Shown here piece after piece: positions 538 to 35,025 of a stretch of DNA of 35,076 nt. Made by a program: the position numbers and the translations under genes. The notes under the pieces are model-generated. The model saw only the letters and a program-made list of their open reading frames with translations, was not told the origin of the DNA and ran no database searches. Source of the stretch: a virus. The stretch spans positions 1 through 35,076 of IMG/VR virus record IMGVR_UViG_3300050821_002214; one strand, written 5' to 3'. Every line of letters starts with the position of its first letter. The stretch's first letter is position 1.

Positions 538-942
538 TTGGAACAAGCTCCTGGCAGCGACCCCAAAACCATTCTTGTTGTCGATGACGATCCCCATATT
601 GTTGCCGCTGTCTTGGCATTGCTCGCCGACAGTGAATACACCATTTTGACGGCTGCGAGCGGATCAAAAGCTCTGGAACAATCACGAGCTTTCAAAGGCG
701 ATATTCATCTGCTCCTGTCAGATTTTCAAATGCCGGGAATGTCCGGGATAGATTTGGCTACGGTAATGACCGCTGACAGACCAGAACTCCAGGTACTTCT
801 GATGTCCGGGTTTAACGGAGGAATGCTCGTGCTCAATGAAGGATGGCACTTTCTGGCGAAGCCATTCGTTGCGTCACAACTTCGAGCGTTGATAACGGGT
901 CTCCTCTTTCCGAACAGACGAAGCAGTAAATTTTCAAAATAG
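538..942 (+). CDS. Stand-alone response regulator receiver protein
   Basis: This 134-aa protein is a single CheY-like receiver domain. The acidic pocket (D16, D17), phosphoacceptor D62 in the LLSDFQMPGMSG segment, the switch Ser S90 and the invariant K108-P109 are all in place, so phosphorylation by a histidine kinase is expected. No output domain follows; it must act by protein contact or compete for a phosphoryl group. The start is TTG at 538, chosen because AGAGAGAGG lies just upstream and the domain begins at once. No kinase is encoded in the phage, so the partner would be a host kinase. A receiver-only protein in a prophage end is unusual; a moron role is inferred. Confidence 0.92.
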   Translation: MEQAPGSDPKTILVVDDDPHIVAAVLALLADSEYTILTAASGSKALEQSRAFKGDIHLLLSDFQMPGMSGIDLATVMTADRPELQVLLMSGFNGGMLVLNEGWHFLAKPFVASQLRALITGLLFPNRRSSKFSK

Positions 943-3326: not shown

Positions 3327-6300
3327 AATATCCGATTCTCGTCGGCGTCAGAAATTGTGTATTTGGCTCCTGGTAGATTTGAATGTACGCTTCGCCGTCA
3401 TACGAAATCCACCACGTTCTTTTTCCGCTTGCGGTAACTCCGTCGTCCATCCGAAGCCACACGATTGAAACTGCTGTCCAGTAAGACAGATTAACGATGT
3501 TGGCGTTGATACTTGTTGCTGATGGTCCGCTGTCATATTGCAGGTTAATCGCCCCGCTGTTGAGAAGCAAGGTGAAGATGAGAACCTTGGTTCCATCGCT
3601 AATCACCAAGCCAGCGTTGCCGTTCACTGAATGGTTCGTGGTCCCGAAGACGTTTATCCGACACGCCAGAGTTCTGGTGAAAGGAGGTGTAGGATAAGCG
3701 ACATATCGTATGTTGAGATTTGAACTTCCGGTTCCAATCGCACTCATGATGTTTTCACCGCCATGGGTCGTTGTGAGAGTTGCTGTTGACTGATTCATCC
3801 AAGAGAACCCCGAGGGTGGAGTCATCTGTTTTCCATCTTTGAGATATACCCATGCACCTGACTGGTAAATTGCCATATCGTACAACGAATCGGTGAAGAG
3901 ATACATTTGACCGGCTGAAGGTGAACCCGGCAAGCTGGCAAACGTTCCCGCTGAAATGGAACTCCCACCACCACCACCCGAGTACACCGGGATATTCAAT
4001 ACTCCGCTTGACAGTGTTGATGCACCACTGGTACCTGTGGTGGTAAGGCTTGTGACAGCACCAGCCGCACTGATGACGCCCGATGAAATCGTGATCGAGG
4101 TTCCGTCTGGCTTGACGATCCCTTTTAAACTCGTCGTCGCTGTCGGAACCGAGATCACACCAGCGGAAATATCGATTGTGGTCCCATCCGGCTCGACCAA
4201 GCCCAGATTACTTGTTGTCGCTGTCGGGATCGTTTCCCAGTCAACGCCGTCTGTAGCGCTCGAACGAGCCGTCAAGACCTGTCCATCCGATCCGACGCCG
4301 AGACGAGCGTTTGTTGTCCCATAGACATAAACGTCACCTTTGGTCGTCAGGGGACTAGAACCGGTCGCAGTTACCGTGATACTTCCAGAGCCGTTATCTG
4401 TCAACGTGATGTTTGTTCCAGGAACAAGATTCAATAGTGACTGACTGCCGTTTGTCGTTCCGTTTGTTTCTAGTTTCAGGTTCGGTTGCCCAGTCGTTGA
4501 AAGCGCTCCACCAGAACTAGCAACAACGGCGCTACCATCACCAGCACCACCACCCGAAGCTCCTCCACCCATGCCTGACCAGAAATCGAGATACGATCCG
4601 ATCTCTTGAATGTTTACCATTCTGATTGTGTAGAGATAATGGCCATAGCTTCCCAGGTAAGGCTTAACCGGAACCATCTCGGCGTCAACCGATTCGATGA
4701 TCCAGTCACCATTAAGGAGCGATGTCCCACCAGTTGGAAGCGTCAGAGCTACATCAAGCGTCATTCCAGGAAAGAGACCCGGAACAAACGTTCTGAATTC
4801 GAAGCTGTTAGGCGCAACCGAGTATGATTCCAACGCCGTCTGGCACAGAAGCAAACCGGCTGCGGCTGATGTCGCAATAAGACCCTGTGACGAAGCGTCG
4901 GTTATTTGCTGATACTTTCCTGTTCCGTGTGTGATGGCCGCAAGCGCCGTTACAAGGCTGGTATCCTCGCATTCGATTATGTTTCCATCGGATCGAGTGT
5001 ATTCCACATTCAAGTTGCTTCCTGAATCAAGTGGAGTTGCCATACTGATGACGGCTACCCCTGGCGTGTAGACGACACCTGGTGCAGATACCGAAGTGCC
5101 TTCTACGCCCGTTGCAATCGTAATAGTTGCGCCTTCATTCTTTCCTAAAGATCCCTGTGGACTCGTGCCACCAGTTGTAACAGGACTGCTCCACGAAAAA
5201 GCGGTTCCGGTTGAAGCAAGATTCGACACCCAGCCCGTACCCGCAGCCTTCTGTTGAATGGTGAAAGAGGTTCCGGTGTTACTGATTGCATTACATTGAT
5301 TACATTCCCAAGTCGGAAGACTGAATGTCGCCCCTCTTACAACTGCGTTCGCATTGATGGCGTCAACAAGATTTAAGCATGTTGCTGTTGAATTCGCCCC
5401 GATGAGAACCTGACCGAATTGTGTATTGTCCAGAGTCGAAACAAACGTGTAGGTGTCGATACCAGTCGAAAGTCCCGCTGGTCCCTGACACGTCCAAATG
5501 ATGTCATTGTCGACCGTCGTTGCACCTGTAATCGTTGAAAACGTCGGGATAGTAGAGCCGGAACGATCCGTTCCCCCGATAACCGTGACCACCTGCACAT
5601 AGCCGTTAATAACCAAATCCCCGCCGACCGCATAGATGTGGTTAGCCTGCCAGGTTCCTGACGCTGGTCCGATTGTGACCGTATCTCCGGCTGTCGGTTG
5701 ACGGCTGAATGTTCCGGTTGCCGTGTTGCACGTGCTCAGAGTAACGAAAGCGTTTGTTATTTGCTGAACCGGACGCAAGCAGGTCAAGTTCATCTGACCA
5801 GAGCCGACGAAATATTCCATCGAACGTCCGAACGCATCATAAGACAGCTTCACGGCCTGACGATTTCTGTAGTCTGCGCCGTCAACTTTCCAGACTGCCG
5901 TTTCCCATAAAACATCTTGATTCTGAAGTGTGAATGGTGCCGTGATGCTTGAAGGAGATTCGAAATATAATCTGTAGCTTCGTGGATTCACGCCCCAGGT
6001 AAACTGACTGGTCGTCGCAAGCTTGCTGATAATCTCGCTGATCTTTTCGTAGTTCGTCACGAGGAGCGGAATCGTTGCGCCGTTGGCGATGGGACCAAAC
6101 GACACAGGACCACCAGTCACAAGTCTTGTCATCAGATCCTTGATGATGTAACCGCATGTTTCATTCACATATGAAACCGGAGGACAATAAATTGTGTCGA
6201 GGGTTGACTCGAAAGAAACCGCTGTGATTATGACGTTGTGATCTCCGTTCGTACCCAGCCATTCATATTCAAGATCTTGAATGAGACCAGACCAGACCGG

Positions 6301-7449: not shown

Positions 7450-9876
7450 TTATTTTGAGTACGGGCTATAGGAAGGACTGGAGTTCTTCAGATGCTTTGC
7501 AATGACCCTGGCTGTTTCTTTCGGGTCGGACGCTTCATGAATGTGAAACGTGTGATTCCCGCCGTTAAATGTTTGGTTCGTATCGCCCGATGGATTCACG
7601 CTGGAAGATCGCATAGAATACGATCCGCTTGTTGGGTACGCCTGTGGCGCACCAGGACCAGACAGACTTGCAGTCTTCAGATAATCAGATACTTTATGAT
7701 TAGGAACGATCTGTGATCCTCGTGGAACATTCATCAGTTCGGGTCCACGTTCGCCGACCCAGGCCAAACCACCAGGAGCAGAATCGGTACCATCGGCGAA
7801 TCCAAGTAAAGCCATCTGAGTAAACAGAGCATCCGTCATTATGCCCAATGCTACGGTGTTCGCTATCGTCGCCGACAATTGAGCGCTCGTCACCGTAGTC
7901 TGAAGTGACAGCCCCAATACGTTCACAGCCATCTCCGCAACAAGCTTTTGAATCATTCCAGTAAGCAACTCACCAAACAACTGCTTGCCAGCATTCTTGA
8001 ATACGTTGGCTATATCCTTGCCGACCGAGTCACCCTTCTGGTGACGGCTGAAGACATGGCTTAGCGTTGAGCCGAGTTCTTGCGGCAATGACATCAAGGT
8101 CTTTTGAATGTCAGCGGACATATTACCCGTGCCGAAATTGCTCCACTGTTGAAGTGTTTGTTTCGTGTTTGCAGTCGCAGAATCGCCTATCTGTTTTTGA
8201 GTGCTCAGCCCCGTTGCCTGGTTTTGCACCTCCAGAATCTTCGTCACTGCCTCATATTGGGCGTTGGCGTCAATCGCTTTCTGTTTATCGAGTGCGTTCT
8301 GTGCCTTCTTGATTGCCAGTTCATCACCCAGCACTTTTGCAGTGGCGAGTTCTGTCTCTAAAGTTGCTTCCTTTGCAGCCATTTCCGCCGCATCGAAACC
8401 AGCCATAGTGGTCATATAGGTGATTTGTTGCGACTTGGTATGCAGCAACTCAAGACCATAGGCTCTTTCCGTTGCTAGTTTCTTCGCCTGTAATTCGGCT
8501 TCGGCTGAATTGGCTCGTCCTGACGCATTGGCGTCGGACATTTTTGCATCGTGTTCTTGCTTATCAGTGCCAATCTTTTCACCGATCCGTTGCCCTTCCT
8601 GAACGAGGTTTTCATATTCCTTAGCGGCTGCTTTCGCTTTCGCAGCGTTTTCCTCAGCAACCTTTTTGCCCCGTTCAGCGACTCGTGCGATTGCAGCACT
8701 GCTTTCCTGGTGAAGTCTTACCAGTTCATGCGTGATTTCTTCTGATCGGGTTTTGTATTGCGATTCCGCTGCTAAGCGAGATTCCCAGTACTTGATTAGT
8801 TCGCCGAGATTCGCTTTATACGTTAACGAATCCGCTCCGAGGCCATCTTCATCAGATTTCTTTAGCGCTTTCTCTTTTGCTTCCGTCGCCTCTTTAGCTG
8901 CTTGTGCTGCATCCTTAGCTGCTTTTGCTTTTGCGTTGTCGGCCTGTGCTTTATCAAGATCGAGAGAGTTCGATGCAGCATGTTGAACCCGTTTGGCTTG
9001 ATTTAATTGTTCCTGAAGTTGTTTAATCTGGCCCGATTGATCTTCTATGAGTGAGTCACCTGACGCTCCTGATCCTGACCCGCCGCTACCGTCTGTTACA
9101 TCTCCCTTCGGCGATAGCGCTGCTTGCCGTCTCTTCTGAAGAGCCTTTGTCGAGTCAAGTTTGGTCGTGAGCCTTTGTATTTCACCAGAGGCGCTATCTT
9201 TAATCTTCTTTGCATCGCCGTCTGCATCTGCAACCTGTTCTCTGAATCGGTCGGCACCTTCGGCATTACCCTTAGTCGATGCCTGATTACCAAACAATTG
9301 CGCAAAGAACCCCACGTTTTGTGTCTTCAGTATCTCTGACAGCTTTGCCAGGTCCGTATCGAGTGACGCCGCCAGTTTGTCGGCATTGACCCTCGCTTCA
9401 TCCAGGGTTATTGCCAGCGTGTTTTCGTGCTTGCCTGTGAGTTTGGCTGTTTCTGCATTAAGGCGAGCAATGCTTAGGTCAGTTTCGTCGTTAGAATCTT
9501 TCAGCCCTCTTGAAAAACTACGCCATGCTTCTTCGCTCTTTGCTTTTCCTTCAGATACTTTATTGAAGAACTCGGCTATTTTCTTACCCGTCTCGATGAC
9601 GGCTACACCAATAGCGATGACGGCAACTGACGAAAACGCCGCATTCATAGCCGTGGAAATACCGGGAAGTTCGGCTAGAAAATTTCTCGCATGCCGAGGC
9701 AATGATATGCCCAGTTCTTCACCAAGCAACGCCATGGCCCCTTTAGCCTCGTTTGCTGATCCCTTGGCGTGAGAACTGAACTCCTTAATATTGCCTTTTG
9801 CTTTTTCGAGATCCTTGACGAATTGCGAGGTTCCCGCCGACAAGTTGATACGGATTTCACCGACCGATAGAGACAT
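7450..9876 (-). CDS. Tail tape measure protein
   Basis: An 808-aa, mostly helical protein that sets tail length. It begins with the usual tape measure start (VGEIRINLSAGTSQFVKDLEKA), has a hydrophobic segment (about 76-105), long coiled coils rich in A, K and E (about 150-560), and a membrane-like stretch near residue 645-695 followed by GFADGTDSAPGGLAWVGERGPEL, a motif common near tape measure C-termini. Residues 138-149 read RLNAETAKLTGK; nearly the same 12 residues occur in the lipoprotein at 11192-11482. CCAATAAATACCTTT precedes the ATG. Confidence 0.92.
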   Translation of the reverse strand: MSLSVGEIRINLSAGTSQFVKDLEKAKGNIKEFSSHAKGSANEAKGAMALLGEELGISLPRHARNFLAELPGISTAMNAAFSSVAVIAIGVAVIETGKKIAEFFNKVSEGKAKSEEAWRSFSRGLKDSNDETDLSIARLNAETAKLTGKHENTLAITLDEARVNADKLAASLDTDLAKLSEILKTQNVGFFAQLFGNQASTKGNAEGADRFREQVADADGDAKKIKDSASGEIQRLTTKLDSTKALQKRRQAALSPKGDVTDGSGGSGSGASGDSLIEDQSGQIKQLQEQLNQAKRVQHAASNSLDLDKAQADNAKAKAAKDAAQAAKEATEAKEKALKKSDEDGLGADSLTYKANLGELIKYWESRLAAESQYKTRSEEITHELVRLHQESSAAIARVAERGKKVAEENAAKAKAAAKEYENLVQEGQRIGEKIGTDKQEHDAKMSDANASGRANSAEAELQAKKLATERAYGLELLHTKSQQITYMTTMAGFDAAEMAAKEATLETELATAKVLGDELAIKKAQNALDKQKAIDANAQYEAVTKILEVQNQATGLSTQKQIGDSATANTKQTLQQWSNFGTGNMSADIQKTLMSLPQELGSTLSHVFSRHQKGDSVGKDIANVFKNAGKQLFGELLTGMIQKLVAEMAVNVLGLSLQTTVTSAQLSATIANTVALGIMTDALFTQMALLGFADGTDSAPGGLAWVGERGPELMNVPRGSQIVPNHKVSDYLKTASLSGPGAPQAYPTSGSYSMRSSSVNPSGDTNQTFNGGNHTFHIHEASDPKETARVIAKHLKNSSPSYSPYSK

Positions 9877-9897: not shown

Positions 9898-10596
9898 CTA
9901 TCCCGTGGGATTCGTGTCGGCGTAGACGTGTACCCAGCGTTTATAGATTGCTGAAGTGTTTCCCTCTTTCAGGCCGAGCATCTTGGCGATTTTGGGAAAC
10001 GATAGACCGCTCTGACGTAATTCAATAATACGCTTGCGCAAAGCGATTTGTTCTGGTGTTCCGTCAGTGGTCTGGCGTTCTCTATTTTTGTTCCACGCCG
10101 GTCGACCTATTCCAGCTTCACTGATTTTCCGTCTGGTTTCGGCAGAATGCGGCGTACGAGGGTGTACTGCGTATCGAGCTTTGAGGGATTCCGATCTTTT
10201 ACGAATTGATTCCGGGGACGCTTTCTTGCCTCTTAACGCAATGCTGTTCGCAGCCCCTATCTTGCGTTTGGTGCTCTCAGACATCCGATGAGTGCGTCCA
10301 CCCGGAGAAATGTTGTACCCTTGTGTTCTGTTTGTCGAGTCGTAATGATGCACTTCCATGCACTCAATCCCGTCGAGTTCTTCCTGTGATGACGCACCAT
10401 GAAGAAGTGTGACTACAAACGCATCACGACCATATTTTCTGATCGCATGAGACAGGACCATGTTCTTTAATCCTGTCAGTGCCTTGTAACAGTGTTGGTT
10501 CCAGCGCTGGTTAAGCGGTTGGACGGTCTGCCCAACATAGACCTTTCTGTTGATAGTGTTCGTTATGAGGTAAATGCTTCCGTATGGAGACTTCAT
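9898..10596 (-). CDS. GIY-YIG homing endonuclease with NUMOD repeats
   Basis: A 232-aa protein with an N-terminal GIY-YIG domain (SIYLITNTINRKVYVGQT, residues 7-24, then the NQRWNQHC segment with the conserved Arg), a Gly-rich NISPGG link, and NUMOD3-like DNA-binding repeats (SESTKRKIGAAN, SPESIRKRSESLKAR, SAETRRKISEAGIGRP). A C-terminal HTH (IIELRQSGLSFPKIAKMLGL) follows. It sits between the gp10-like gene and the tape measure gene, which are normally close together, so it is a free-standing homing gene inserted in the late operon. Confidence 0.92.
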   Translation of the reverse strand: MKSPYGSIYLITNTINRKVYVGQTVQPLNQRWNQHCYKALTGLKNMVLSHAIRKYGRDAFVVTLLHGASSQEELDGIECMEVHHYDSTNRTQGYNISPGGRTHRMSESTKRKIGAANSIALRGKKASPESIRKRSESLKARYAVHPRTPHSAETRRKISEAGIGRPAWNKNRERQTTDGTPEQIALRKRIIELRQSGLSFPKIAKMLGLKEGNTSAIYKRWVHVYADTNPTG

Positions 10597-11191: not shown

Positions 11192-11482
11192 ATGAAACTG
11201 ACCAGCTTGTTATTGACAGCGGTCCTGTGTACAGCCTGCGGCCCGTCGTTGAAGGATAGAGCCGAACAGACGAGGGATATCGAGCGTTCGAAATATGCCG
11301 GTATGGTTATGGACGTGGAGAATGCAACTGCGGATCTTGAAATTATCCGCCTCAATGCGGACACGGCGAAACTAACCGGCAAGCCGGTTGATAAGAAGGC
11401 CATCGAAGACGCCGAAAAGAAACTAGCAGCCTCTAAACTGGCATTGCAACTCGACGGCTACCTTGCTGAAGTCCGAAATTAA
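11192..11482 (+). CDS. Lipoprotein moron with tape-measure motif
   Basis: A 96-aa lipoprotein: MKLTSLLLTAVLCTAC signal with lipobox Cys16, then a charged, coiled-coil-like mature part. ATG at 11192 is preferred over an upstream in-frame start because AGGAGG lies 11 nt before it. It is on the strand opposite to all surrounding tail genes, with its own promoter and terminator, the hallmark of a moron expressed in lysogeny. Residues 53-64 (RLNADTAKLTGK) match tape measure residues 138-149 at 11 of 12 positions, and the DNA is about 28/36 identical. Lipoproteins that bind tape measure proteins and block injection of related phages are known in Streptococcus phage TP-J34, so superinfection exclusion is the favoured guess. 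Confidence 0.8.
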   Translation: MKLTSLLLTAVLCTACGPSLKDRAEQTRDIERSKYAGMVMDVENATADLEIIRLNADTAKLTGKPVDKKAIEDAEKKLAASKLALQLDGYLAEVRN

Positions 11483-13660: not shown

Positions 13661-14131
13661 TCAGGTATTTATGGATTCCGGGACGGCCTCATGTGAGACA
13701 AGGTAGTTGCCAGCTTTGAAACAGGTAAGAGGATTTTCTCTAGCGTAGGCTATGAGCAGGTTGCAAAAGGAGTGCAAAATGGCCCGAATCTTTCCCGTTT
13801 CATGATTATGATCGATACAGGGTCTAAGATTGTTGACGCTTCGGTCAAATGGCTCTTCACAGAGCGCACATGTGTGGTTTTGGCGTTCCATCATTGCCTG
13901 GTACTGATCGAAGGTAAGGTTATAGCGGCGTTTGAGCGTATATCCTTTCCGTCGTAGCTTTCTGTCGGGTCTCGCCTCATTGCGTTTGCTTCTGGCGTGC
14001 ATACAGACCAAGCAACCAGCGGAACTGGTATATCTAAGCCTTTCTTGACAGTGTTTGCAGGGTGGTCCGGTATAGGTGACGTGGTCTGATAGTTGTGCTT
14101 GCTGACGTGGAGAGAGATCGGAAGTATTCAC
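13661..14131 (-). CDS. Endonuclease VII-type homing nuclease
   Basis: From GTG at 14129-14131 the protein has 156 aa; an earlier in-frame ATG at 14185 would overlap the connector gene. N-terminal zinc motif CKHC ... CLVC, then YNLTFDQYQAMMERQNHTCALCEEP, IDHNHETGKIRAILHSFCNLLI: this is the recombination endonuclease VII core with catalytic DH and the C..C/C..N zinc site. It lies between the connector and head closure genes, which normally adjoin, so it is an insertion in the late operon. Confidence 0.88.
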   Translation of the reverse strand: MNTSDLSPRQQAQLSDHVTYTGPPCKHCQERLRYTSSAGCLVCMHARSKRNEARPDRKLRRKGYTLKRRYNLTFDQYQAMMERQNHTCALCEEPFDRSVNNLRPCIDHNHETGKIRAILHSFCNLLIAYARENPLTCFKAGNYLVSHEAVPESINT

Positions 14132-14139
14132 ACGAATAC

Positions 14140-15246
14140 TTAGTACCGATAATCCATGACCGGCCCGAGAATCGCTTTGACACAATCACGTGTTGCAGAA
14201 TCATAGGACGGAAGACGATTCACGAACCAAGAGTTGACCAAAAACTTTATAGCGGTCTTTGCGAGTTCCCAATGCTGCGGAGATCCATAATTCACCAGCA
14301 ACGCCGTGGAAGGCTGTGCAATGGCAGTGGTAGCCACGTCACGCATTGTTCCGACTCCACCAGACACGGATTGAATGATCGTGTTCAGGGTTGCGCCACC
14401 CGGCCCCGCTCCTGGGATCGAAATCGGTTGACCGATGTTCACAGCGGTGAACGTCGCTGTTCCAAGTGTTGCGCTGTTTGCGCTCGTGGTCACCTGAACC
14501 GGTGAAGCGTACCCAAGGGTGAAATTGATCTGAACTGCATTGGCAATGACACGAGCAACTGGCCACATTTGGCCGAAGATCGGCATCAATCTTGCCGGTT
14601 GCGATTCGAGATCTTCGACGAAGTTAAAGCCGGTCACCTGGCCGGTTGCCGTGATGCTCGATCCGGTTCCGGTGACGTACGGCAAAAGTAGAGTGACATC
14701 GTCGAGCACATTGATTTGCTGGTTCGCAACGCCGGAACATAACGCAATTAATGCAGTGTTGCCGGAAATGGTCACGCTTGCGTTTGACTCCAGCCCGTGT
14801 GGTTCCGCCGTGACTATCTGAACCGGTTGGTTCAATGTGTTTGTCACAGAGGCGATATTGAACGGCCCGGTAATCATGCTTGTCGTCTGACCGTTCGCAT
14901 TCAAATAGACGAATGTGTTTAGGGTCTGGACAGGAGGAAACGGAAGGAGGAAAGCGTATCGGATGCCCACCATGACGGCGTTAGAACCCGACACGAACGG
15001 ACTAGAGATCTTCTGACCGATCATTTTCCAGTCCACATAACCCGGAAAAAAATCTGTCATGAGCGTCCACGACTGTTGAACCAATTTGCGCTGTGCAATG
15101 GATTCGCACATCGACGTTGCAGCCACGTTCAGCGAGGTTAAAACGTCGTCTTGTGTGGTGTCGCCCTGATCTATACGAAGCATCGATTTCAGTTCTTGAA
15201 TCGATACCGGGTTTACCAGAGGAGGCGAAGTACAGATGAGAGCCAT
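14140..15246 (-). CDS. Head-tail connector (gp6-like) with a large insertion
   Basis: A 368-aa protein. The N-terminus (PVSIQELKSMLRIDQGDTTQDDVLTSLNVAATSMCESIAQRKLV) and C-terminus (HWELAKTAIKFLVNSWFVNR) are those of gp6-like connectors, which are usually about 100-220 aa. The middle (about residues 105-300) is a Ser/Thr/Gly-rich beta region with repeated short motifs (EPHGLESNASVTISGNTA), likely one or two surface domains displayed at the neck. The start overlaps the stop of the small upstream gene by one base. Confidence 0.82.
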   Translation of the reverse strand: MALICTSPPLVNPVSIQELKSMLRIDQGDTTQDDVLTSLNVAATSMCESIAQRKLVQQSWTLMTDFFPGYVDWKMIGQKISSPFVSGSNAVMVGIRYAFLLPFPPVQTLNTFVYLNANGQTTSMITGPFNIASVTNTLNQPVQIVTAEPHGLESNASVTISGNTALIALCSGVANQQINVLDDVTLLLPYVTGTGSSITATGQVTGFNFVEDLESQPARLMPIFGQMWPVARVIANAVQINFTLGYASPVQVTTSANSATLGTATFTAVNIGQPISIPGAGPGGATLNTIIQSVSGGVGTMRDVATTAIAQPSTALLVNYGSPQHWELAKTAIKFLVNSWFVNRLPSYDSATRDCVKAILGPVMDYRY

Positions 15247-15476: not shown

Positions 15477-16190
15477 CTAAGCCGCTAATGGACGCCGGAA
15501 ATAGGCAGTCATGCCGTACCATTCTTCGTAGGTGTATCGGTTGCCTTTTGCATGGTTGCATCTTTTACAACACACTACGACATTGTTTATTTGATAGCCG
15601 ATAGCGTTGTCTTTGCGGTCCAGATTGTAGCTTTGCCCATTCTTCGCAACGCAATGTTTGGCGAATGTCACCGAGGCACAACAGTAATGACATGTCGGCT
15701 TCTCAGCGAACGTTACGAACTCTTCATAGGACAAACTGAAACTGTGATTGTCCCGAGCCGCCGACCGACCAGCGTTATGATAGAGCGCTTCATATGGCCT
15801 AATACGTACCTTCACGTTCTCTTTTCTCGAACATTTACCGCATTGCGACGACTTACCACGGGTCAGTCTGTGACCAGACACCTCCTTGACCGTGCCGCAC
15901 TCACATTGACAGATCCACGGAAAGTTACTCACACCGTCACGAGTCGCACCTCGTCCAGTCACCGTCCATTTACTAAACCGTTGTCCTATGTGTAACTCGA
16001 TACGATGTGAACACCCGACACAATGCGTCGTTCTGCCTCTGACTAATGAACTGCTATCAGTCGTCGATTCGGTTCCGCAGTCACACAGTACTTTCCACAT
16101 CCTCACACGACTGGGACTCACACCAACAAACGCCATTACAGTCCATTTACCAAAGCGTCGCCCGTTCAGGTCATAACCTTTTCCTTTCAT
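15477..16190 (-). CDS. HNH homing endonuclease with zinc ribbons
   Basis: From ATG at 16188-16190 (MKGKGYDLNGRRFGKWTV) the protein has 237 aa; an upstream in-frame start lies in the terminator of the capsid gene and is less likely. Two CxC ... CxxC ribbon units (CDCGTES..HCVGC and CECGTVKE..CGKC) lead to an HNH-type core (CHYCCASV, LDRKDNAIGYQINNVVVCCKRCNHAKG). It is inserted between the capsid gene and the small head gene. Confidence 0.88.
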   Translation of the reverse strand: MKGKGYDLNGRRFGKWTVMAFVGVSPSRVRMWKVLCDCGTESTTDSSSLVRGRTTHCVGCSHRIELHIGQRFSKWTVTGRGATRDGVSNFPWICQCECGTVKEVSGHRLTRGKSSQCGKCSRKENVKVRIRPYEALYHNAGRSAARDNHSFSLSYEEFVTFAEKPTCHYCCASVTFAKHCVAKNGQSYNLDRKDNAIGYQINNVVVCCKRCNHAKGNRYTYEEWYGMTAYFRRPLAA

Positions 16191-16210
16191 GCGAGTATCT
16201 AGCAAACACA

Positions 16211-16238
16211 AATGGCCACCCTTTTCAGAGTGGCCATT
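16211..16238 (-). terminator. Terminator after the major capsid gene
   Basis: AATGGCCAC (16211-16219) pairs perfectly with GTGGCCATT (16230-16238) over 10 nt, followed on the minus strand by TGTGTTTGC. It probably trims read-through from the strongly expressed capsid gene. Confidence 0.7.
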
Positions 16239-20432: not shown

Positions 20433-21236
20433 CTAACCAGCTTTAGCCTTTGCGTGTAATGGACATAGCGCTTTTGGATCGTTTCGTGAACGGCGAATCA
20501 GATTGCAAGAAAGACAGCCGGTGACATCGACTGTCAACACGCCCCGTGAAGAATAGATCGATTTGAATTGCGGTTTCGCTTGCTGAACCCGGCTGATAGC
20601 CATCACCAGAGCTATGATTCCGTCGATGCGTTTCGAACTCTTTTTGAGTGCTGGCTTGACCGGCTTTATGTTGCCGTTCACATCGGAATAGATCGTTGTA
20701 CAATCCAGATTCCATCTGAGCAACGGGTGACCGGTGTGAACGAGGTGTTTATCGAGCACCAGCCGTTCCAAGCGTTTCGAAGGTGCTGTCATTGCACCTA
20801 ATTGCTGACTGATCTGGACGCAATCCACATTGTGTTCTGCCAGATGGCTCACAACGTCCTTTGCGCCCCACTGGTCAAAAGCGATTTCTTTAATCTTGAA
20901 GCTCTTTCCAAGCTCTGTAATGCGGCTGACGACGTACCTGTCATCTACTGTCCACCCTGGAGTCATCTCCAGATAACCCTCTTTCAACCACTGGTCATAA
21001 GGAACTCCGTCATGTTTTGAGCGCTCTACAAGCCCTTCAGAAGGCAGAAAGAACCAGGGATAACAGTAAATCGTTTCGCCGATGTGCCAGACAAGTACAA
21101 ACGCCGTCAGGTCTGACGTGTTCGAGAGATCAAGCCCACCGTAACAGGGATATGGTTCGAGTTGTTTGAGGAATTCCCGGCCCGTCACGTCATTCGTAAT
21201 GAAATGCGTTTCGGTGATGGTCGCAACGTCAGACAT
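20433..21236 (-). CDS. Terminase large subunit, nuclease half
   Basis: A 267-aa protein equal to the C-terminal part of P27/HK97-type TerL. The RNase H-like nuclease acids are D36 (CYGGLDLSNTSD), D121 (IAFDQWGAKDV) and D205 (SSKRIDGIIALVMA). The C-terminal end adds a CxxC ... CPLH cluster, possibly zinc binding. Its ATG overlaps the stop of the ATPase ORF by 8 bp (ATGTCTGA), in the +1 frame. Some 30 residues precede the nuclease core, more than the normal linker provides. Confidence 0.9.
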   Translation of the reverse strand: MSDVATITETHFITNDVTGREFLKQLEPYPCYGGLDLSNTSDLTAFVLVWHIGETIYCYPWFFLPSEGLVERSKHDGVPYDQWLKEGYLEMTPGWTVDDRYVVSRITELGKSFKIKEIAFDQWGAKDVVSHLAEHNVDCVQISQQLGAMTAPSKRLERLVLDKHLVHTGHPLLRWNLDCTTIYSDVNGNIKPVKPALKKSSKRIDGIIALVMAISRVQQAKPQFKSIYSSRGVLTVDVTGCLSCNLIRRSRNDPKALCPLHAKAKAG

Positions 21237-22176
21237 TCAGCGGTTCACCGTCCCATGCGCACGCATCCCAGAATTTAAGGGGTATCCAGATGTCTTTGGA
21301 GTTCACCCACTGGTTCATGAAGAGTCTTCGGAAGCTGGTTTGTTCTGACGGAAGGTTTAGCGCCTTGTCTCGTTCTTCCCGAAGCGATTCGACATTCACG
21401 ATGCTTCCCAATGCCGGGTTTGCAAGGTGCCATAACGATTCATTTGTCCAGTCGGCGTCTTTTGGTAATTCGTAAATGATCGGAAGGTATGTCGGATCGG
21501 AAACGAGATTCTTCAGGACCCGGCAAGCATGACCGTATTCCTTCCCGCACATGCTGTGCTCGTCAACACCAGCCGTGGTGATAATCAGCCGTAACGGTTG
21601 ACGCCGTGCGCCTGAACCCGTGGTCAGAGCGTCATAAAGTTCTCTGTCGGATTCGTCCCACACGTGGAACTCGTCGATGATGACACATGACGGGTTGTAA
21701 CCGTGCTTGCCCTTGCCATCACTGGACAATGCCCGGAGCTTCCCGCCGTTGGCCGGATTGATGATGGTCTTCTGATAGTCAATAATTTTGAGAAGCCCGG
21801 ACAGTTCTTCACTGGCCCGGATCATGTCACAGGCAGCGTGAAAACAAATTGACGCCTGTTCCCGGTCTTTCGCAGCGATGTATATTTCGGGTTGCGCTTC
21901 GTCATCCATCACCAGAAGATCGAGACCCAATGCAGCCGCAATCTGGGTTTTTGCGTTTTTCCTGGCAACACTGAAATAAGCACGTCGATACAGCCGGGTT
22001 CCGTCAGCCCGTCTCCAGCCGAGAAGATTCGAGACAAGTTCTCTATGAACCCGTAACAACCTGAACGGTTCCGGTCGGCCTGATGGAGTTGACTTCGTTA
22101 ATGTGAGGGATTCAATGAAAGCGATATCGAGAGCCACGCTTTGCGCATCAAAGTACGCCCCGTCAAGTACATTCAT
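21229..22176 (-). CDS. Terminase large subunit, ATPase half
   Basis: A 315-aa protein equal to the N-terminal motor domain of TerL: Walker A VARKNAKT (70-77), Walker B VIIDE (165-169), the coupling motif LIITTAGVDEHS, and the C-terminal end of the ATPase (FMNQWVNSKDIWIPLKFWDACA). It stops right where the linker to the nuclease should start. The stop context is GTC TGA C, a weak terminator context of the kind used in +1 frameshifting, but an overlapping ATG also allows reinitiation. The start overlaps the small terminase gene (ATGA). Confidence 0.92.
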   Translation of the reverse strand: MNVLDGAYFDAQSVALDIAFIESLTLTKSTPSGRPEPFRLLRVHRELVSNLLGWRRADGTRLYRRAYFSVARKNAKTQIAAALGLDLLVMDDEAQPEIYIAAKDREQASICFHAACDMIRASEELSGLLKIIDYQKTIINPANGGKLRALSSDGKGKHGYNPSCVIIDEFHVWDESDRELYDALTTGSGARRQPLRLIITTAGVDEHSMCGKEYGHACRVLKNLVSDPTYLPIIYELPKDADWTNESLWHLANPALGSIVNVESLREERDKALNLPSEQTSFRRLFMNQWVNSKDIWIPLKFWDACAWDGEPLNV

Positions 22177-23217: not shown

Positions 23218-23553
23218 TTACTCTCCTCGTGACGTTCTGATCTGGTGATGATGTTTACAAAGGCTCATACAATTGGATTCAACTAATCGTAGTTCCGGGT
23301 GATCTCTCGCCTTTCGAATGTGGTGGACTTCCTGAACGGCTGTCGGTATTCCTTCAGCGACGCAGTCTTCACAAAGCGGATGACGTGTGATAAACCAGTC
23401 TCGAAACTTTTGCCAGTCCCGATCATAACCACGTTCGTACGAACTGCCTCGGTACAGATCCGGCTTGCGTTTATGTTCGTCGCAATAGTTTCCAGTCTCG
23501 CTGGTGTTGTGACAATGCGGAAACGCACACGCTTTAACGATCTTACCTGGCAC
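23218..23553 (-). CDS. Packaging HNH endonuclease
   Basis: A 111-aa HNH protein: CxxxxC..CDEH zinc motif at the start, YDRDWQKFRDWFITRHPLCEDC, catalytic EVHHI and SLCKHHHQIR. In HK97-type phages a protein of this size works with terminase for cos cleavage and is encoded close to it, as here. Start GTG preceded by TAAATACATGA. Confidence 0.9.
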   Translation of the reverse strand: MPGKIVKACAFPHCHNTSETGNYCDEHKRKPDLYRGSSYERGYDRDWQKFRDWFITRHPLCEDCVAEGIPTAVQEVHHIRKARDHPELRLVESNCMSLCKHHHQIRTSRGE

Positions 23554-24258: not shown

Positions 24259-24666
24259 TTATCGACGAAAGTAGCGGCCCACAACGTTTGAGTTGTACCA
24301 AGCAAACGAGCCATCATCTAATCGAGCGGTGAGCACATCACTTTTTACAAGGGCTTCCAATTCGCTGTAGCTTAATTCAGATTTGGTTTTGCAGAGCTTC
24401 ACAATGTCACGAGTGAAACAATGGTCGCCGAGACGCTTCACATCAGCTTTGAGTTCTTGACACGAGGAGAAGTATGTCGCCCAGTCGGATTCTTTGACGT
24501 AGTGGACTCGGTTCTTCCGGCCTGGAACTTTCTTTGACAGGTGACGATGAAAATTCTTGCGACCGATGTATCGACGGCCTGTCGTGTTCGTGATCAGGTA
24601 GACAAACCCGTGGTAGCCATCAGGTGCGCTCGTTAGCGGTTTGCCTTGATAGATCCACAGATTCAC
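24259..24666 (-). CDS. GIY-YIG-like phage nuclease
   Basis: A 135-aa protein of a type common in tailed phages: GFVYLITNTTGRRYIGRKNF (GIY-YIG-like core), a Lys-rich middle, ESDWATYFSSCQELKADVKRLG and LCKTKSELSYSELEALVKSDVL. It acts as an endonuclease in related proteins; whether it homes or repairs is not known. The start is GTG (24664-24666) after GGGTAAATCCCG. Confidence 0.82.
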   Translation of the reverse strand: MNLWIYQGKPLTSAPDGYHGFVYLITNTTGRRYIGRKNFHRHLSKKVPGRKNRVHYVKESDWATYFSSCQELKADVKRLGDHCFTRDIVKLCKTKSELSYSELEALVKSDVLTARLDDGSFAWYNSNVVGRYFRR

Positions 24667-30172: not shown

Positions 30173-30571
30173 ATGGACTTCAGCAACCTCGACAAAAACA
30201 ACGTACTGGCATATGCGCAAGCCTGCTATTGCAATCCAAATGCAAGCGAGTTCGCCGACGATTATTCGAAGGTTCGTTATGTGATCCGGCTGTTGAAGAG
30301 ATCCTACACAGAGAAGGACATTCAAGAGCACCTGATTTTGAACCATCTCATTATGCTTTCGAATGTCTTCGGCCCGGAATGCGCCGTCAGACTTCTGTTC
30401 GCTCGATTAGATCCTGACTTGTGGTCTCTGCTGAAAACCTTCCTGGTCTTCATGGGAATCATGCCGGATGTGGTTCCCGGAATTTGTGGACGTGACGTTC
30501 TGTCGCCTGAAATCCTGATCAATCTGCCTCTTGCCACAACACTGAAGACGATCAAAACCGCCTGGTTCTGA
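30173..30571 (+). CDS. Conserved-type phage protein of unknown function
   Basis: A 132-aa, all-helical protein (VLAYAQACYCNPNASEFADDYSKVRYVIRLLKRSYTEKDIQEHLILNHLIMLSNVFGPECAVRLLFARLDPDLWSLLKTFLVFMGIMP). The pattern NHL..L.NVFG...A..LLF...D...W..LKTFL..L..MP is one I recall from short proteins of many large tailed phages, always without a known role. The start ATG is 27 nt after the second terminator, so it needs a promoter inside that gap or antitermination. Confidence 0.72.
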   Translation: MDFSNLDKNNVLAYAQACYCNPNASEFADDYSKVRYVIRLLKRSYTEKDIQEHLILNHLIMLSNVFGPECAVRLLFARLDPDLWSLLKTFLVFMGIMPDVVPGICGRDVLSPEILINLPLATTLKTIKTAWF

Positions 30572-30757: not shown

Positions 30758-30943
30758 ATGAAAAACATCGTAAAGCGCTTCATCCAGGACGAATCCGGCC
30801 AGGATTTGATTGAGTACACAATGTTGACCGCTATGATTGCGCTTCTTTCCGCAGCAATCTTCGTCAACGTCGGGTCAAGCGTCTCCGCCGTCTGGCAACA
30901 AATGTCTAATCAGTTGTCGAACGCCGCATCATCCGCAAGCTAG
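30758..30943 (+). CDS. Flp/Fap-type pilin (type IVb)
   Basis: A 61-aa prepilin: short basic leader MKNIVKRFIQDESG, cleavage after G14, then QDLIEY with Glu at +5 and the hydrophobic helix TMLTAMIALLSAAIFVNVG. Length and motif are exactly those of Flp pilins, assembled by Tad machinery. AAAAGGAC is a good ribosome site. No Tad genes occur in the prophage, so the pilin must use the host prepilin peptidase and secretion system. Its own terminator follows, so it is a self-contained unit. Between 30572 and 30757 no gene is visible. Confidence 0.93.
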   Translation: MKNIVKRFIQDESGQDLIEYTMLTAMIALLSAAIFVNVGSSVSAVWQQMSNQLSNAASSAS

Positions 30944-30987
30944 GGCAATCTCAGAAAGGTCACAGGTCCCTCCTACTGGGACGCCCG

Positions 30988-31026
30988 AACCGGAATCGGC
31001 CCCGAAGCTGGTTCCGGTTTTTTTTT
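30988..31026 (+). terminator. Strong terminator after the pilin gene
   Basis: AACCGGAA (30988-30995) pairs perfectly with TTCCGGTT (31012-31019), followed by nine T (31018-31026). Confidence 0.92.
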
Positions 31027-31044
31027 GTGACCACTGGACAAACC

Positions 31045-31650
31045 ATGAAGAAAGCCTTACTCGCAATCCCCATGCTTCTGGCGTCCGCTGCGTATGCGGA
31101 CACAATCAACCTGGTCGGCGTCAACGGCGTCACGGACGGCCCCGATTACGTTTTGCCGTATTACCTCAGCATCAATGGTGCTGCGCCGATCCCGGCTGAC
31201 TGTTATGACTTTTTTCACGACTCATACATCGGCCAAACGTGGATAGCAAACATTTTCAGCCTGAACGAGGCGATTCAATTTGGACAGTTTTCGAAGTTCC
31301 CAAACGCCGCAATCGGCTACATGGAAATCGCTATTCTCAACACCTTCACGTACGGGACGCCGGGTCAGCAAATCGATCTTCAACACACGATTTGGAATAT
31401 TTTCGATCCGATCTTTACAGTTGACGCCGGAATGCAAGCTGACCTGGCCGAGGCTGACGCTCTTCTCGATACCTTCAACTACTCTCACACGCTGTTTGTG
31501 GAAGGGTTGCCGGATCAAGCTTTCGTGGTCACCGATACGTCAATCGTTCCGACTCCACAAGCCCCAGAGCCTTCAACGTGGTTTCTCGTTGGTGCTGGGA
31601 TCGTGCTTATCACTGTCAGCAAGTGCAAATCATTTCAGGAGAGAAATTAA
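31045..31650 (+). CDS. PEP-CTERM sorted exported protein
   Basis: A 201-aa protein with signal peptide MKKALLAIPMLLASAAYA and cleavage before DT. The start at 31045 is chosen because an upstream in-frame GTG at 31027 only adds six residues before the signal. The body is acidic and beta-rich with no family recognised (NAAIGYMEIAILNTFTYGTPGQQIDLQHTIWNIFDPIF). It ends in a full PEP-CTERM signal: PEPSTWFLVGAGIVLI followed by a basic tail. Sorting by a host exosortase to the cell surface is expected from family knowledge. It lies directly after the pilin terminator and just before the next gene (TAACATG). Confidence 0.9.
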   Translation: MKKALLAIPMLLASAAYADTINLVGVNGVTDGPDYVLPYYLSINGAAPIPADCYDFFHDSYIGQTWIANIFSLNEAIQFGQFSKFPNAAIGYMEIAILNTFTYGTPGQQIDLQHTIWNIFDPIFTVDAGMQADLAEADALLDTFNYSHTLFVEGLPDQAFVVTDTSIVPTPQAPEPSTWFLVGAGIVLITVSKCKSFQERN

Positions 31651-31651
31651 C

Positions 31652-32065
31652 ATGTCCAACAAGAAAGAACTTTACATCAACTTTTTCAACTGGTCTGAGG
31701 TGTTGCATAATGCTTCACTGATGGCCATCACCCTGGATCGTAACGGCGTGATACTCATGCTGGAGACCCTCAAGGCTCACTGTTCCGAGCATTCCGCAAC
31801 ATATTCGCTCAACACTGAAGAACAGAACCATTTGACGGCCCTGATAATCCAGGCCGAAAACATCGCCTGTTGGCGTCTCCGGTTCGTGACCAGACAATTG
31901 GCGCACTGGATGAATCAGTATCAGTTTTCAGTCACGGCTGACATTCACCGGAAGATCGATCTTCGCAACCCTCTGACACGTGGTCTCCGGGCTGAAGAAC
32001 GGGCGAAGCTGGCTGCGTATGGCAGTGACGCCGAGCGCTTTCGGATCGTGTCTTCGGCCTGGTAG
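31652..32065 (+). CDS. Helical hypothetical protein
   Basis: A 137-aa protein starting MSNKKELYINFFNWSEVLHN; GGAGAG lies upstream and the ATG begins two bases after the PEP-CTERM stop, so both are on one mRNA. Predominantly helical with several Trp, His and Arg (NIACWRLRFVTRQLAHWMNQYQF). No signal or membrane segment. Not recognised. Confidence 0.72.
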   Translation: MSNKKELYINFFNWSEVLHNASLMAITLDRNGVILMLETLKAHCSEHSATYSLNTEEQNHLTALIIQAENIACWRLRFVTRQLAHWMNQYQFSVTADIHRKIDLRNPLTRGLRAEERAKLAAYGSDAERFRIVSSAW

Positions 32066-32133: not shown

Positions 32134-32177
32134 AAACGGGTCGTGCTCTTGTCGAGTGCGGCCCGTTTCTGTTTTGT
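32134..32177 (+). terminator. Terminator after the 31045-32065 unit
   Basis: AAACGGG (32134-32140) pairs with CCCGTTT (32162-32168), followed by CTGTTTTGTT. Confidence 0.75.
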
Positions 32178-32190
32178 TGGGACAAATGCT

Positions 32191-32739
32191 GTGAAAGAAG
32201 TAACATTAATGAATGGAATGATAGCGCTCGTTGACGATGAAGACTTTGAACGTGTCCGCCATTATAAGTGGCGTCTCTCCAAGAAAGGATACGTTGAGAG
32301 CACAATTACACGGGAGAATGGCAAACAGACGACTTTGCAAATGCATAGGATGATCCTGAATGCACCAAAAGGCAAACAGGTTGACCATGCTGATAGGAAC
32401 AAGCGCAACAACCAAAGACACAATTTGAGGTTGGCAAACAACGGCCAAAACGGAGCGAACAAGGGGTTGCAGAAAAACAACACCTCTGGCTTTAAGGGCG
32501 TCACGTTTGACAAGCAATCACGAAAGTATCGAGCACAGGCTGGTAATGTAATCCGCCTTGGTTCATTTGTTTCACCTGAAGACGCAGCGAGGGCATATGA
32601 TCGAGCGGCCATTTTGTTATTTGGTGAGTTTGCATTGACAAACGAGTCATTGGGTTTGATCCCGCCTGCAAGCATGGAACATGAGTACGATATCGTCTCA
32701 AACTATTCCGCTCAGGCTAGTGAAGTGCCACTTTATTAG
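32191..32739 (+). CDS. AP2/HNH homing endonuclease
   Basis: From GTG at 32191 (KEVTLMNGMIALVDDEDFERV) it has 182 aa; a longer frame to 32125 would run through the terminator and is rejected. The HNH core reads LQMHRMILNAPKGKQVDHADRNKRNNQRHNLRLANN, followed by an AP2 DNA-binding domain (SGFKGVTFDKQSRKYRAQAGNVIRLGSFVSPEDAARAYDRAAILLFGEFALTN). This is the standard architecture of phage free-standing HNH-AP2 homing nucleases. Confidence 0.93.
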   Translation: MKEVTLMNGMIALVDDEDFERVRHYKWRLSKKGYVESTITRENGKQTTLQMHRMILNAPKGKQVDHADRNKRNNQRHNLRLANNGQNGANKGLQKNNTSGFKGVTFDKQSRKYRAQAGNVIRLGSFVSPEDAARAYDRAAILLFGEFALTNESLGLIPPASMEHEYDIVSNYSAQASEVPLY

Positions 32740-32811
32740 CAACTGTCACCCCCGGAAGTGTCCGGACGATGCGCTGTAGAGCCTCTCACGGCGATTGTCG
32801 GCCATCAGGCG

Positions 32812-32910
32812 TCATGTGTGACCGGCCCGGAAAATGTCCAGAATCGTCTTGACGATTCCCGCCAGAATGCCGAGCCGTTTTAACCAATCGTCGATTTGTT
32901 GTTTCTTCAT
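32812..32910 (-). CDS. Possible 32-aa amphipathic peptide
   Basis: The frame reads MKKQQIDDWLKRLGILAGIV, then KTILDIFRAGHT. A charged start, a hydrophobic or amphipathic helix (about 12-27) and a short tail. TATAAG on the minus strand lies 14 nt before the ATG. Size and layout recall small membrane-active or type I toxin-like peptides, but the evidence is weak. It is the only gene-like feature between 32740 and 33131. Confidence 0.4.
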   Translation of the reverse strand: MKKQQIDDWLKRLGILAGIVKTILDIFRAGHT

Positions 32911-33089
32911 ACGGAGACCAACTTATAGGGACTGCCTGTGAATCGGACAGCGCCGCATCAGATTTTTCTGTGGATCACGGAAAGCCCGTCAGACTGGCGT
33001 TCCGTGTACCTTTGCACAGCGATTGCGAATTTTTGCAGAGAAAAGACACATCCAACATTTTACGTTAGAAATGTTCTGCGACGACAAAT

Positions 33090-33102
33090 TAGATGTATCT
33101 GG
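33090..33102. promoter_or_regulatory. TAGATGTATCTGG operator upstream of the excisionase-like gene
   Basis: Identical over 13 bp to 27591-27603. It is 29 bp before the ATG at 33132, which is the -35 position if that gene is transcribed without a leader. Confidence 0.55.
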
Positions 33103-33131
33103 ACATCAGAAGCCGAATGTAGCTGGTTTAG

Positions 33132-33458
33132 ATGACAACTTCCACGTTTGCCATTACGATAGATGTAGAGGGATCTTTCAAGATGGTAGACGCAATACTG
33201 AGACCGTTAATTGATGATATTGCCAGACTCACGGCACGTTTTGTTATAGAAGAACTCCGCAGCAATCCGATTATCAAACCAAGATGGACAGATACGAAAG
33301 GTGCGGCTGCACATCTCGATTGTACAGAGACCGCATTGGCGCAACGCCGGAGTAAAGGTCAGATTCCAGGCTACTGTTGCCGGAAACTGGGGAACTCGCT
33401 TCGTTGGGATATTGATGCGCTCGATACATGGATGGAGTCGTTACCAGAGGCAGCATAA
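33132..33458 (+). CDS. Excisionase-like HTH protein next to the integrase
   Basis: A 108-aa protein with an N-terminal helical part (FKMVDAILRPLIDDIARLTARFVIEELRSN) and a C-terminal HTH of the HTH_17 type: PRWTDTKGAAAHLDCTETALAQRRSKGQIPGYCCRKLGNSLRWDIDALDTWM. Recognition helix and wing are present. It is convergent with the integrase gene, 51 bp away, the usual place for an excision or directionality factor; it may equally regulate. No ribosome site precedes the ATG. Confidence 0.75.
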   Translation: MTTSTFAITIDVEGSFKMVDAILRPLIDDIARLTARFVIEELRSNPIIKPRWTDTKGAAAHLDCTETALAQRRSKGQIPGYCCRKLGNSLRWDIDALDTWMESLPEAA

Positions 33459-33509
33459 AAGCCGTCAAGGTTCCCCCTAACGGCCCCGATTTCCCGATCA
33501 GAAGTAAGT

Positions 33510-34808
33510 TCAGAGTCTCGATTTCATCACCATGAACTCTTCATCTGTCAAAAGACCTTTAAAGTACATGTCCGTGAGTGTTTTGAGTTTATCGCTTCCA
33601 CCATTCGAGCTTTCAAGAACCGAGGTTTTGCCGTTCAGATATTTGTTCATCTGGGTCTGAGTTCTTTTTGCTGCATCAACATCCTGATCATATCCACGAT
33701 GAACTTCAGTCGTCTTGTGGCCGGTCGTGCGCATGGAATCGGCTTCTGTGACACCAGCCCGACCCTGGTGCGTAATCGTGGTTCGTCTCGTGTCATGGAA
33801 CTTCACAATGTTTTCCATGATCGGTTTCCCTTTGCGCCTACCTTTCCCATGCAACATCGGGCTTCCGTCAGCGTTCATCTTTGGACGCTGCAAACCAGCA
33901 CGCCTGCAAGCGTTATCCCATGCCGTTCTCCATTCCTCGATTTGCTTTCCGTTGTAATGGAAAAGAAACTTACACGAGGGGAAGAATTCCGCCGTGTATG
34001 CCATCCAATTTTTCAACGGTTCAACAGCAATATCAAGAATCGGTACGGCCCGTGCTTCGCCGTCTTTGGTTTCTCCTTCCCGGAGATGAATCATTGCGAT
34101 ATCCCAATCGACTTGCTCACGCCTGATGAACTTCAGTTCCCTTGATCGGACGCCGGAGTACATCACGAACGGAAGAACTGGTTTCATGTGATCCGACAGA
34201 TTGTCCACCAGGAGCCGGTATTGTTCGTCCGTGATGAAGCCCTTTCTCCGTCGTTTCTTTTCGGTTGCCGTGTCGATGACTTTTTTGAATGATGGAACGG
34301 AGAAGACTTTTTTGGGAGTCGCTTCCATACCGAGCCTCATCGAAGCCCGAAGATACGACAATTCCCGATTTATAGAAACTACCCAGCTTCCCTCCTCTTT
34401 TCCCATCGCCCGGTACTCAGCAATGCGATGCTGAACGTAGTCCGTCAGGTCCCTGGTTTCCAGCCGATTGGCCCGGATCTTCCTGAAGAACGGGCGAACG
34501 TGCCGGTTCACCGTGTAACCGGTTTTCTTGGAAGTTTTTGTCTTGTACCGGCCCTTGTTCTCATCCCGGATCTTCAGGTGTTCCAGGTAATCGTCAAGGA
34601 GTTCGGGGATCATGACGCCCTTTGCCTGGTCAGGTGCCTTTTCTCCGAGCACCATCTTTGCCTTGATCTGATCCCGTTTTGCGGCTGCTTTCTTCGGATC
34701 GTCAGTTCCCGTAGTGCCTCTGGAAACGATGCCATTGTGCGATACGACGTAATAGATTTTGTTGCCCTTCCAATAGAGGTTATCGGGTAATGCCGCTCTC
34801 GATTTCAT
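33510..34808 (-). CDS. int: Tyrosine integrase with SHOCT-like C-terminus
   Basis: A 432-aa phage integrase: N-terminal arm-binding region (about 1-60), SAM-like core-binding domain (about 65-170) and catalytic domain with R221 (SGVRSREL), K248, H338-x-x-R341 (HDTRR), H364 (GHK) and nucleophile Y373 (HRGYDQ). After the catalytic domain, residues about 405-431 read DKLKTLTDMYFKGLLTDEEFMVMKSRL, the pattern of a SHOCT domain, which is uncommon on integrases. It lies at the right end, facing the att site, and targets the anticodon loop of tRNA-Thr. Confidence 0.95.
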   Translation of the reverse strand: MKSRAALPDNLYWKGNKIYYVVSHNGIVSRGTTGTDDPKKAAAKRDQIKAKMVLGEKAPDQAKGVMIPELLDDYLEHLKIRDENKGRYKTKTSKKTGYTVNRHVRPFFRKIRANRLETRDLTDYVQHRIAEYRAMGKEEGSWVVSINRELSYLRASMRLGMEATPKKVFSVPSFKKVIDTATEKKRRRKGFITDEQYRLLVDNLSDHMKPVLPFVMYSGVRSRELKFIRREQVDWDIAMIHLREGETKDGEARAVPILDIAVEPLKNWMAYTAEFFPSCKFLFHYNGKQIEEWRTAWDNACRRAGLQRPKMNADGSPMLHGKGRRKGKPIMENIVKFHDTRRTTITHQGRAGVTEADSMRTTGHKTTEVHRGYDQDVDAAKRTQTQMNKYLNGKTSVLESSNGGSDKLKTLTDMYFKGLLTDEEFMVMKSRL

Positions 34809-34978: not shown

Positions 34979-35025
34979 GATTCGTAATCAGCAGGTCGCC
35001 GGTTCGATCCCGGCGGGTGGCTCCA
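34979..35025 (+). tRNA. attR core and 3' part of the interrupted host tRNA-Thr(CGT)
   Basis: The core GATTCGTAATC (34979-34989) is followed by AGC closing the anticodon stem, the T arm GCCGGTTCGATCCCGGC, acceptor GGGTGGC, discriminator T and CCA (ends 35025). The 5' neighbour sequence is phage DNA without tRNA character. After the tRNA, ATTTTTC may be the original terminator. Bases 35026-35076 are host DNA with no feature visible. Confidence 0.95.

Follow-up and report, generated by a model that had tools for sequence, protein, structure and literature searches.

Orphan Tad pilin genes recur in phages, a feature that has barely been described so far within the literature searched, and one of them belongs to a surface-gene cassette in the window analysed here, a 35,076-base IMG/VR record (IMGVR_UViG_3300050821_002214) with a complete prophage inside. 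The best explanation of the cassette, to which we give an even chance of being right, is that it is surface-remodelling cargo, host-derived and comprising a pilin and an anchored adhesin, carried by a complete temperate phage whose host is inferred to be an Acidobacteriota of Bryobacterales type. Phages are known to carry cargo that changes the surface of their host; the recurrence of orphan Tad pilins is unexpected. A sequence-only reading of the same DNA had proposed that its pilin and PEP-CTERM genes use host machines and give lysogens an altered surface. That interpretation as a whole is partly supported, and the present analysis goes beyond it in three respects: the recurrence of orphan pilins, a thioester-domain-like signature in the PEP-CTERM protein, and a copy of the tape measure protein in one of the products that it had listed as lipoproteins.

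The cassette and its prophage

The window phage is temperate, a complete prophage dormant in the chromosome of a soil bacterium. An 11 bp core is present in two copies, one per prophage junction, and joining the flanks at this core makes a host tRNA-Thr(CGT) of 76 nt whole again. The cassette and the features that frame it are as follows.

60-70: attL core GATTCGTAATC, in the 5' part (31-70) of the split host tRNA-Thr(CGT)
30173-30571, + strand: DUF7207/phrog_407 phage gene, left border of the cassette
30758-30943, + strand: orphan Flp/Tad pilin, 61 aa, assigned from PF04964 (16.8 bits, below the Pfam cut-off of 32.2), the identity of its relatives and the tree
30987-31020, + strand: intrinsic-terminator-like hairpin with a T run, downstream of the pilin gene
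31045-31650, + strand: PEP-CTERM surface protein, 201 aa (TIGR02595), with Cys53, Q113xxIW117 and Gln158
31652-32065, + strand: 137-aa protein without a confident family, starting one base past the PEP-CTERM stop codon and filling the rest of the interval named in the sequence-only reading
32134-32168, + strand: intrinsic-terminator-like hairpin and T run, closing the cassette after its last gene
32206-32739: HNH gene (HNH_3, phrog_99), right of the cassette
33132-33458, + strand: excisionase-like gene (phrog_66; HTH_17 below its cut-off)
33510-34808, - strand: tyrosine integrase (PF00589, phrog_1)
34979-34989: attR core GATTCGTAATC, in the 3' part (to 35025) of the split host tRNA-Thr(CGT)

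The intact Flp pilin and the PEP-CTERM gene are thus both real and both phage-borne, since phage genes flank them, with the HNH, excisionase-like and integrase genes occupying the right flank (32206-34808), and the att junctions enclose them. A candidate for the terminator that the sequence-only reading had ascribed to the pilin gene was also found: the hairpin at 30987-31020 has 14 pairs (-22.2 kcal/mol in isolation) and is followed by a T run, in a terminator scan that overall gave 5 sites against a shuffle mean of 6.6, that is, no excess over shuffles. Immediately upstream of the pilin gene we detected no sigma-70-like promoter, so that independent expression, as in a typical moron, is only putative. 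For the 137-aa protein we found no relative in the 8 other records or genomes tried and could confirm no viral relatives, and a Padloc search gave no match for the cassette.

Both genes depend on host machinery, as had been claimed. No T2SSE motor was found in the window, which rules out that the pilin is part of a phage-borne Tad system, and such a motor was present in 3/3 of the host-clade genomes tested. An exosortase (PF09721) was present in 12/12 candidate-host genomes, a set that does not include the window's own host. As the pilin has the requirements for processing and assembly and brings none of the machine, it can act only on a host Tad system.

On the strength of its residues and homology, the 61-aa product is a member of the Flp/Tad major pilin family. 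Its match to PF04964 (E 0.0061) lies below the Pfam cut-off, and on this branch 14 of 15 genomes or records had a match to the model at E<=0.01, with 8 above the cut-off; PF04964 therefore misses much of the branch, and membership does not rest on the Pfam score. The prepilin site (G14 followed by QDLIEY), Glu19 and Tyr20 are intact (Gly -1, Glu +5, Tyr +6), and a hydrophobic helix follows. The residue numbering matches that of Caulobacter PilA, and in the Caulobacter Tad pilus Glu19 and Tyr20 form core hydrogen bonds (PMC11067988). We scanned one genome per species across 84,980 species and confirmed 92 relatives, of which the best 80 (79 loci) were kept. The four best cellular relatives are 62-66% identical to the window pilin (best E 9e-24), and Acidobacteriota assemblies account for all of the ten best.

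Among eight neighbourhoods of such relatives (L019-L026), the first three (L019-L021) have a pilin 62-64% identical to that of the window directly upstream of CpaB-, CpaC-, CpaE- and CpaF-like genes (named by eye), with T2SSE matches at the CpaF position once contigs were matched by number and position; no Tad-type operon was seen beside the pilin in the other five (L022-L026). The Flp pilins that head tad/cpa operons in Acidobacteriota thus resemble the window pilin in size, prepilin site, Glu19/Tyr20 and identity (62-66% for the four best), whereas the window pilin is phage-borne, alone and without Tad genes. Two of these host operons have two tandem Flp pilin genes before the cpaB-like gene (L019, 7618-8183; L020, 7627-8183), and the gaps that follow these genes contain strong hairpins.

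We then placed the window pilin in a tree of 140 pilins, built from 143 rows by removing the re-fetched viral copies L098, L099 and L109, X-containing sequences and those without G-x4-E-[YFH], and by adding five viral pilins. With 59 columns and a bootstrap that had not settled, the tree is rough. It places the window pilin in a group of 20 (support 97/92) whose other members are pilins from Acidobacteriota assemblies, Bryobacterales types included. In the phylogeny against host Flp copies that the sequence-only reading had suggested as a check, the phage gene hence groups with host pilins, and three of these stand at the head of Tad operons. The GC content of the pilin gene is 0.50, that of the phage 0.498 and that of four candidate-host loci 0.57-0.63.

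Several other features of the prophage deserve mention. The host tRNA-Thr(CGT) is split in the anticodon loop, and the insertion does not restore it; the prophage has its own intact tRNA-Thr(CGT) (206-281, - strand), identical to the host copy at 62/76 positions, which may act as a substitute for the broken host tRNA. Homing-endonuclease-like genes (GIY-YIG/HNH by eye) lie at 9898-10596, 13661-14185, 15477-16211, 23218-23553, 24259-24666 and 32206-32739, the last being covered by a family search and the other five judged by eye. The large terminase (20433-22176, - strand) is divided over two overlapping ORFs in different frames, and its relatives in L004, L006 and L014 hold both parts in one frame, judging from coordinates; the division may be genuine, or it may reflect a frameshift or an error in the sequence. 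A response-regulator receiver domain, standing alone, is encoded at 538-942 (+ strand) in the left arm, and the PADLOC model SduA matches it weakly and only in part.

Orphan pilins in other phages

Searches beyond the window revealed pilins in 13 further IMG/VR contigs and one prophage. Three of the contigs (L002, L016 and L018) carry GQDLIEY-type pilins and ten (L289-L298) carry GQDLVEY-type pilins. The prophage came from a survey of Terriglobia portal genes, in which 36 portal matches led to 30 fetched loci in 28 genomes (the other six were short, at a contig end, secondary or a duplicate locus); its pilin lies upstream of the terminase genes (L207, genome G321). As only 1/30 of these loci has a pilin, such cargo is rare. 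The 14 virus records, window included, have exactly one Flp match each at E<=0.01, and a T2SSE motor was found in 0/14 of them.

For several of these pilins, phage genes were confirmed nearby: a terminase and a helicase in L016, a DNA methyltransferase and a replication protein in L018, a DNA polymerase and an exonuclease in L002, a terminase in L207, a major tail protein and a head-tail adaptor in L294, a portal and an endolysin in L298, tail fibre J in L289, a ParB-like protein in L296 and a DNA methyltransferase in L293, with phage families also in L292 and L297. PHROGs gave no match for two proteins beside the L207 pilin or for the one tested in L291; the neighbour tests covered L002, L016, L018, L207, L289, L291-L294 and L296-L298. 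A tyrosine integrase is present in only 3/14 of the pilin-bearing virus records, which may be fragments, and the role of the pilin may therefore extend beyond lysogeny.

The tree in addition suggests that pilins entered phages more than once. The L016 and L018 pilins lie in another part of it, with a Granulicella pilin (support 86/82), and their placement apart from the window pilin implies at least two separate captures; a long branch makes the positions of L002 and L207 uncertain, and the tree does not include L289-L298. Within the L016/L018 pair, dN is 0.136 and dS 0.836, which indicates purifying selection on phage copies of the gene. Recurrence in unrelated phages, together with purifying selection in this pair, argues that the pilins serve phages and are not neutral passengers. 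Among INPHARED phages there was no match to the window or L018 pilins, and PHROGs holds no family for the window pilin and yielded only chance-level matches for those of L016 and L018.

In L016 and L018, two related phage contigs, the product of the ORF before the pilin is a small membrane protein in which an M50-protease-like HExGH motif was recognised by eye. This ORF overlaps the pilin gene in L016 (ORF 5343-6020, pilin 6001-6165) and is adjacent to it in L018 (ORF 2315-2677, pilin 2682-2846), and a pilin-protease pair is possible.

Among the matches listed in our literature search for phage- or prophage-borne Flp, Tad or type IV pilins, with most subscription journals outside its reach, there was one precedent, in Vibrio harveyi, where two prophages have annotated Flp pilins (PMC12482185). 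There, likewise, an Flp pilin gene lies within a prophage. The host, however, belongs to another phylum, the pilin is listed by VFDB similarity as a possible virulence factor, and the available text of that report contains no orphan test, phylogeny or analysis of recurrence (PMC12482185).

The PEP-CTERM protein and its likeness to thioester domains

The second cassette gene encodes a PEP-CTERM protein predicted to be exported, in agreement with the sequence-only reading: it scores 20 bits with TIGR02595, whose cut-off is 16, having the PEP motif, the transmembrane stretch and the basic end, and a signal peptide is recognisable by eye. Its match to Pfam PF07589 is below the cut-off (17.4 against 20.7). 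A host relative with 37-38% identity was found in genome G003, which also has a 64%-identical pilin (L020), and a profile built from the window protein and this relative detected relatives at E<=1e-4 in 80/399 Terriglobia genomes, some of the weakest matches covering the tail region only. No match was found among INPHARED phages and no viral relatives could be confirmed.

An alignment of 31 family members, namely the window protein and the 30 loci returned, showed Cys53, Gln158, Tyr39, Tyr92 and Trp117 to be invariant (31/31), Gln113 to be Gln in 20/31, and Cys53 to be the sole Cys of the core in 22/31. In thioester domains the motif order is [YFL]C-phi-zeta, TQxx-phi-W, phi-Q-zeta-phi-phi, and the Cys and Gln alone are fully conserved (PMC4450167, PMC6194298). 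All 31 members have an invariant Cys and Gln in this same order; in the window protein, Asp precedes both Cys53 and Gln158, where hydrophobic residues are usual.

The comparison with the thioester-domain family itself (TED, PF08341) gave a mixed picture. None of the 31 members matches PF08341 at E<=1 in hmmscan. The model passes its cut-off in 4/399 Terriglobia genomes, and its weaker matches overlap the PEP-CTERM family at four places; the passing proteins (L253, L254, L255 and, taken with its in-frame neighbours, L261) have PEP-CTERM-type tails, by eye. Conversely, a family profile made without the tail matched 9 of 30 PF08341 loci at E<1e-3, including L257 (E 9e-7), whose 21.2 TED bits are just below the cut-off, and nothing at E<=1 among 7,228 ORFs of the other fetched loci. 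Against the proteins above the TED cut-off, the family profile gave weak matches for three (E 0.003-0.02) and none for L261. Alignment with hhalign to the acidobacterial TED-positive proteins (E 1.4e-4, probability 53%) brought the Cys and the QxxIW registers into line, and Firmicutes TEDs gave no significant match to the family. A single-sequence structure model (mean pLDDT 34) was unusable. Relatives among PDB sequences were also sought and rejected, as the family profile matched antibody chains only.

Membership of the PEP-CTERM family among thioester domains is, on these alignments, suggestive, if unproven, and we consider the chances balanced for and against a thioester-type chemistry in it. 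The likeness to the Gram-positive TED/TIE adhesins lies in the invariant Cys and Gln, the QxxPhiW between them and, as predicted for the window protein, export and anchoring (PMC4450167, PMC6194298, PMC8092201). The differences, relative to those adhesins as described in the available texts, are a PEP-CTERM tail in place of the LPXTG anchor, a Gram-negative phylum, a shorter Cys-Gln spacing (105 residues, where three solved class I TEDs have 129-153), and the lack of stalk domains in the window protein. One study found thioester adhesins only in Gram-positive bacteria (PMC4450167). Our literature searches, with most subscription journals outside them, found no thioester-type PEP-CTERM protein among the matches listed and no precedent for an Acidobacteria prophage with a PEP-CTERM protein. 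If the family were thioester-like, a group of exosortase substrates would gain a chemistry open to test, by a mass loss of 17 Da and by the reaction with methylamine.

Possible effects on the host surface

Bacteria use Tad pili for adhesion, and phages use them as receptors. As we envisage it, a host prepilin peptidase would cleave the phage pilin between G14 and Q15, and the host Tad machine would build it into pili, giving mixed filaments, or else the phage subunit would compete with the host's or jam the machine. The altered or blocked filament would then change the adsorption of pilus-dependent phages (superinfection exclusion, our first choice) and also attachment (our second). The PEP-CTERM protein would be exported, sorted by the host exosortase and displayed as an anchored adhesin, possibly working through an internal Cys53-Gln158 thioester.

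The type IV pilus inhibitor of phage D3112 is named Tip. Phage-encoded inhibitors of type IV pili are described from D3112 and Pf4, and the likeness to the window phage would be that of a phage gene altering a pilus receptor and excluding other phages, which for the window pilin is only proposed; theirs inhibit the machine or its expression, whereas the window candidate is a pilus subunit (PMC11436027). In Caulobacter, the pilin of the non-host strain shows four differences, and two of them bear on the bonds with phage phiCb5 (PMC11067988), so that a variant subunit could change the receptor. The described cases of pilus exclusion use inhibitors or lower expression and not a pilin (PMC11436027). 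We therefore rank receptor change ahead of attachment, both as proposed effects. The idea of a decoy pilin, raised in the sequence-only reading, survives as a candidate on this sequence evidence. If phages do supply variant pilins, the receptor would be changed without switching the machine off. The general proposal that phages, those of Acidobacteriota and of other hosts alike, have repeatedly captured Tad pilins to build altered or defective subunits into host pili, here together with an exosortase-anchored thioester adhesin, is tentative, and in this full form we regard it as rather doubtful.

It is quite possible, though short of probable, that the cassette serves lysogenic conversion for attachment. 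An extra pilin allele would make Tad pili more numerous or stickier, and the PEP-CTERM protein would fix cells to surfaces or to one another. Lysogens would thereby keep their niche, and no effect on phage adsorption is needed. The known relatives of both surface genes serve adhesion, the window phage is temperate, and the mobile plasmid pLS20 carries a thioester adhesin that promotes mating (PMC8092201). The small share of pilin-bearing virus records with a tyrosine integrase (3/14) speaks against it, however, and in several phages the pilin lies among replication or structural genes, where a role in infection fits better than a lysogen trait. Less probable, and in our view unlikely, is a neutral or short-lived passenger, in which host genes were captured by chance and are intact because the event was recent. 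Few phages carry such genes, as this would predict, but the window pilin has diverged (62-66% to its best relatives) with reading frame and key residues intact, its GC fits the phage, and the L016/L018 phage pilins are under purifying selection. Misassembly joining host DNA to a phage contig, which the sequence-only reading had named as a finding that would undo it, would account for the host-type genes in the record and is extremely improbable; we reject it on the att junctions and GC, as the record holds both junctions with the cassette inside them and between phage genes, the GC fits the phage, and such pilins occur on other phage contigs too.

Returning to surface-remodelling cargo as the preferred reading, the prophage has one more gene that may bear on superinfection.

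7450-9876, - strand: tape measure protein, named from its size, place and composition
11192-11482, + strand: probable lipoprotein, one of those listed in the sequence-only reading, with an imperfect lipobox (by eye)

The lipobox has its Cys at -3, and the term lipoprotein is accordingly a reading by eye. A self-copy search of the tape measure type in 43 other phage or prophage groups gave one other match (L187+L188), and a stricter version, which missed the window's own case, also gave one (L210+L211). In the window, 51 residues of the product of 11192-11482 repeat a stretch of the tape measure protein encoded by the same phage (26/51 identical, E 5e-9), with a score reached by 0/2000 shuffles. 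Phage TP-J34 encodes the lipoprotein Ltp, which excludes phages by way of their tape measure protein (PMC3952083), and by analogy the small exported product is a candidate superinfection exclusion protein that might act as a tape measure mimic. Its gene lies inside the cluster of tail genes and runs in the opposite direction to them.
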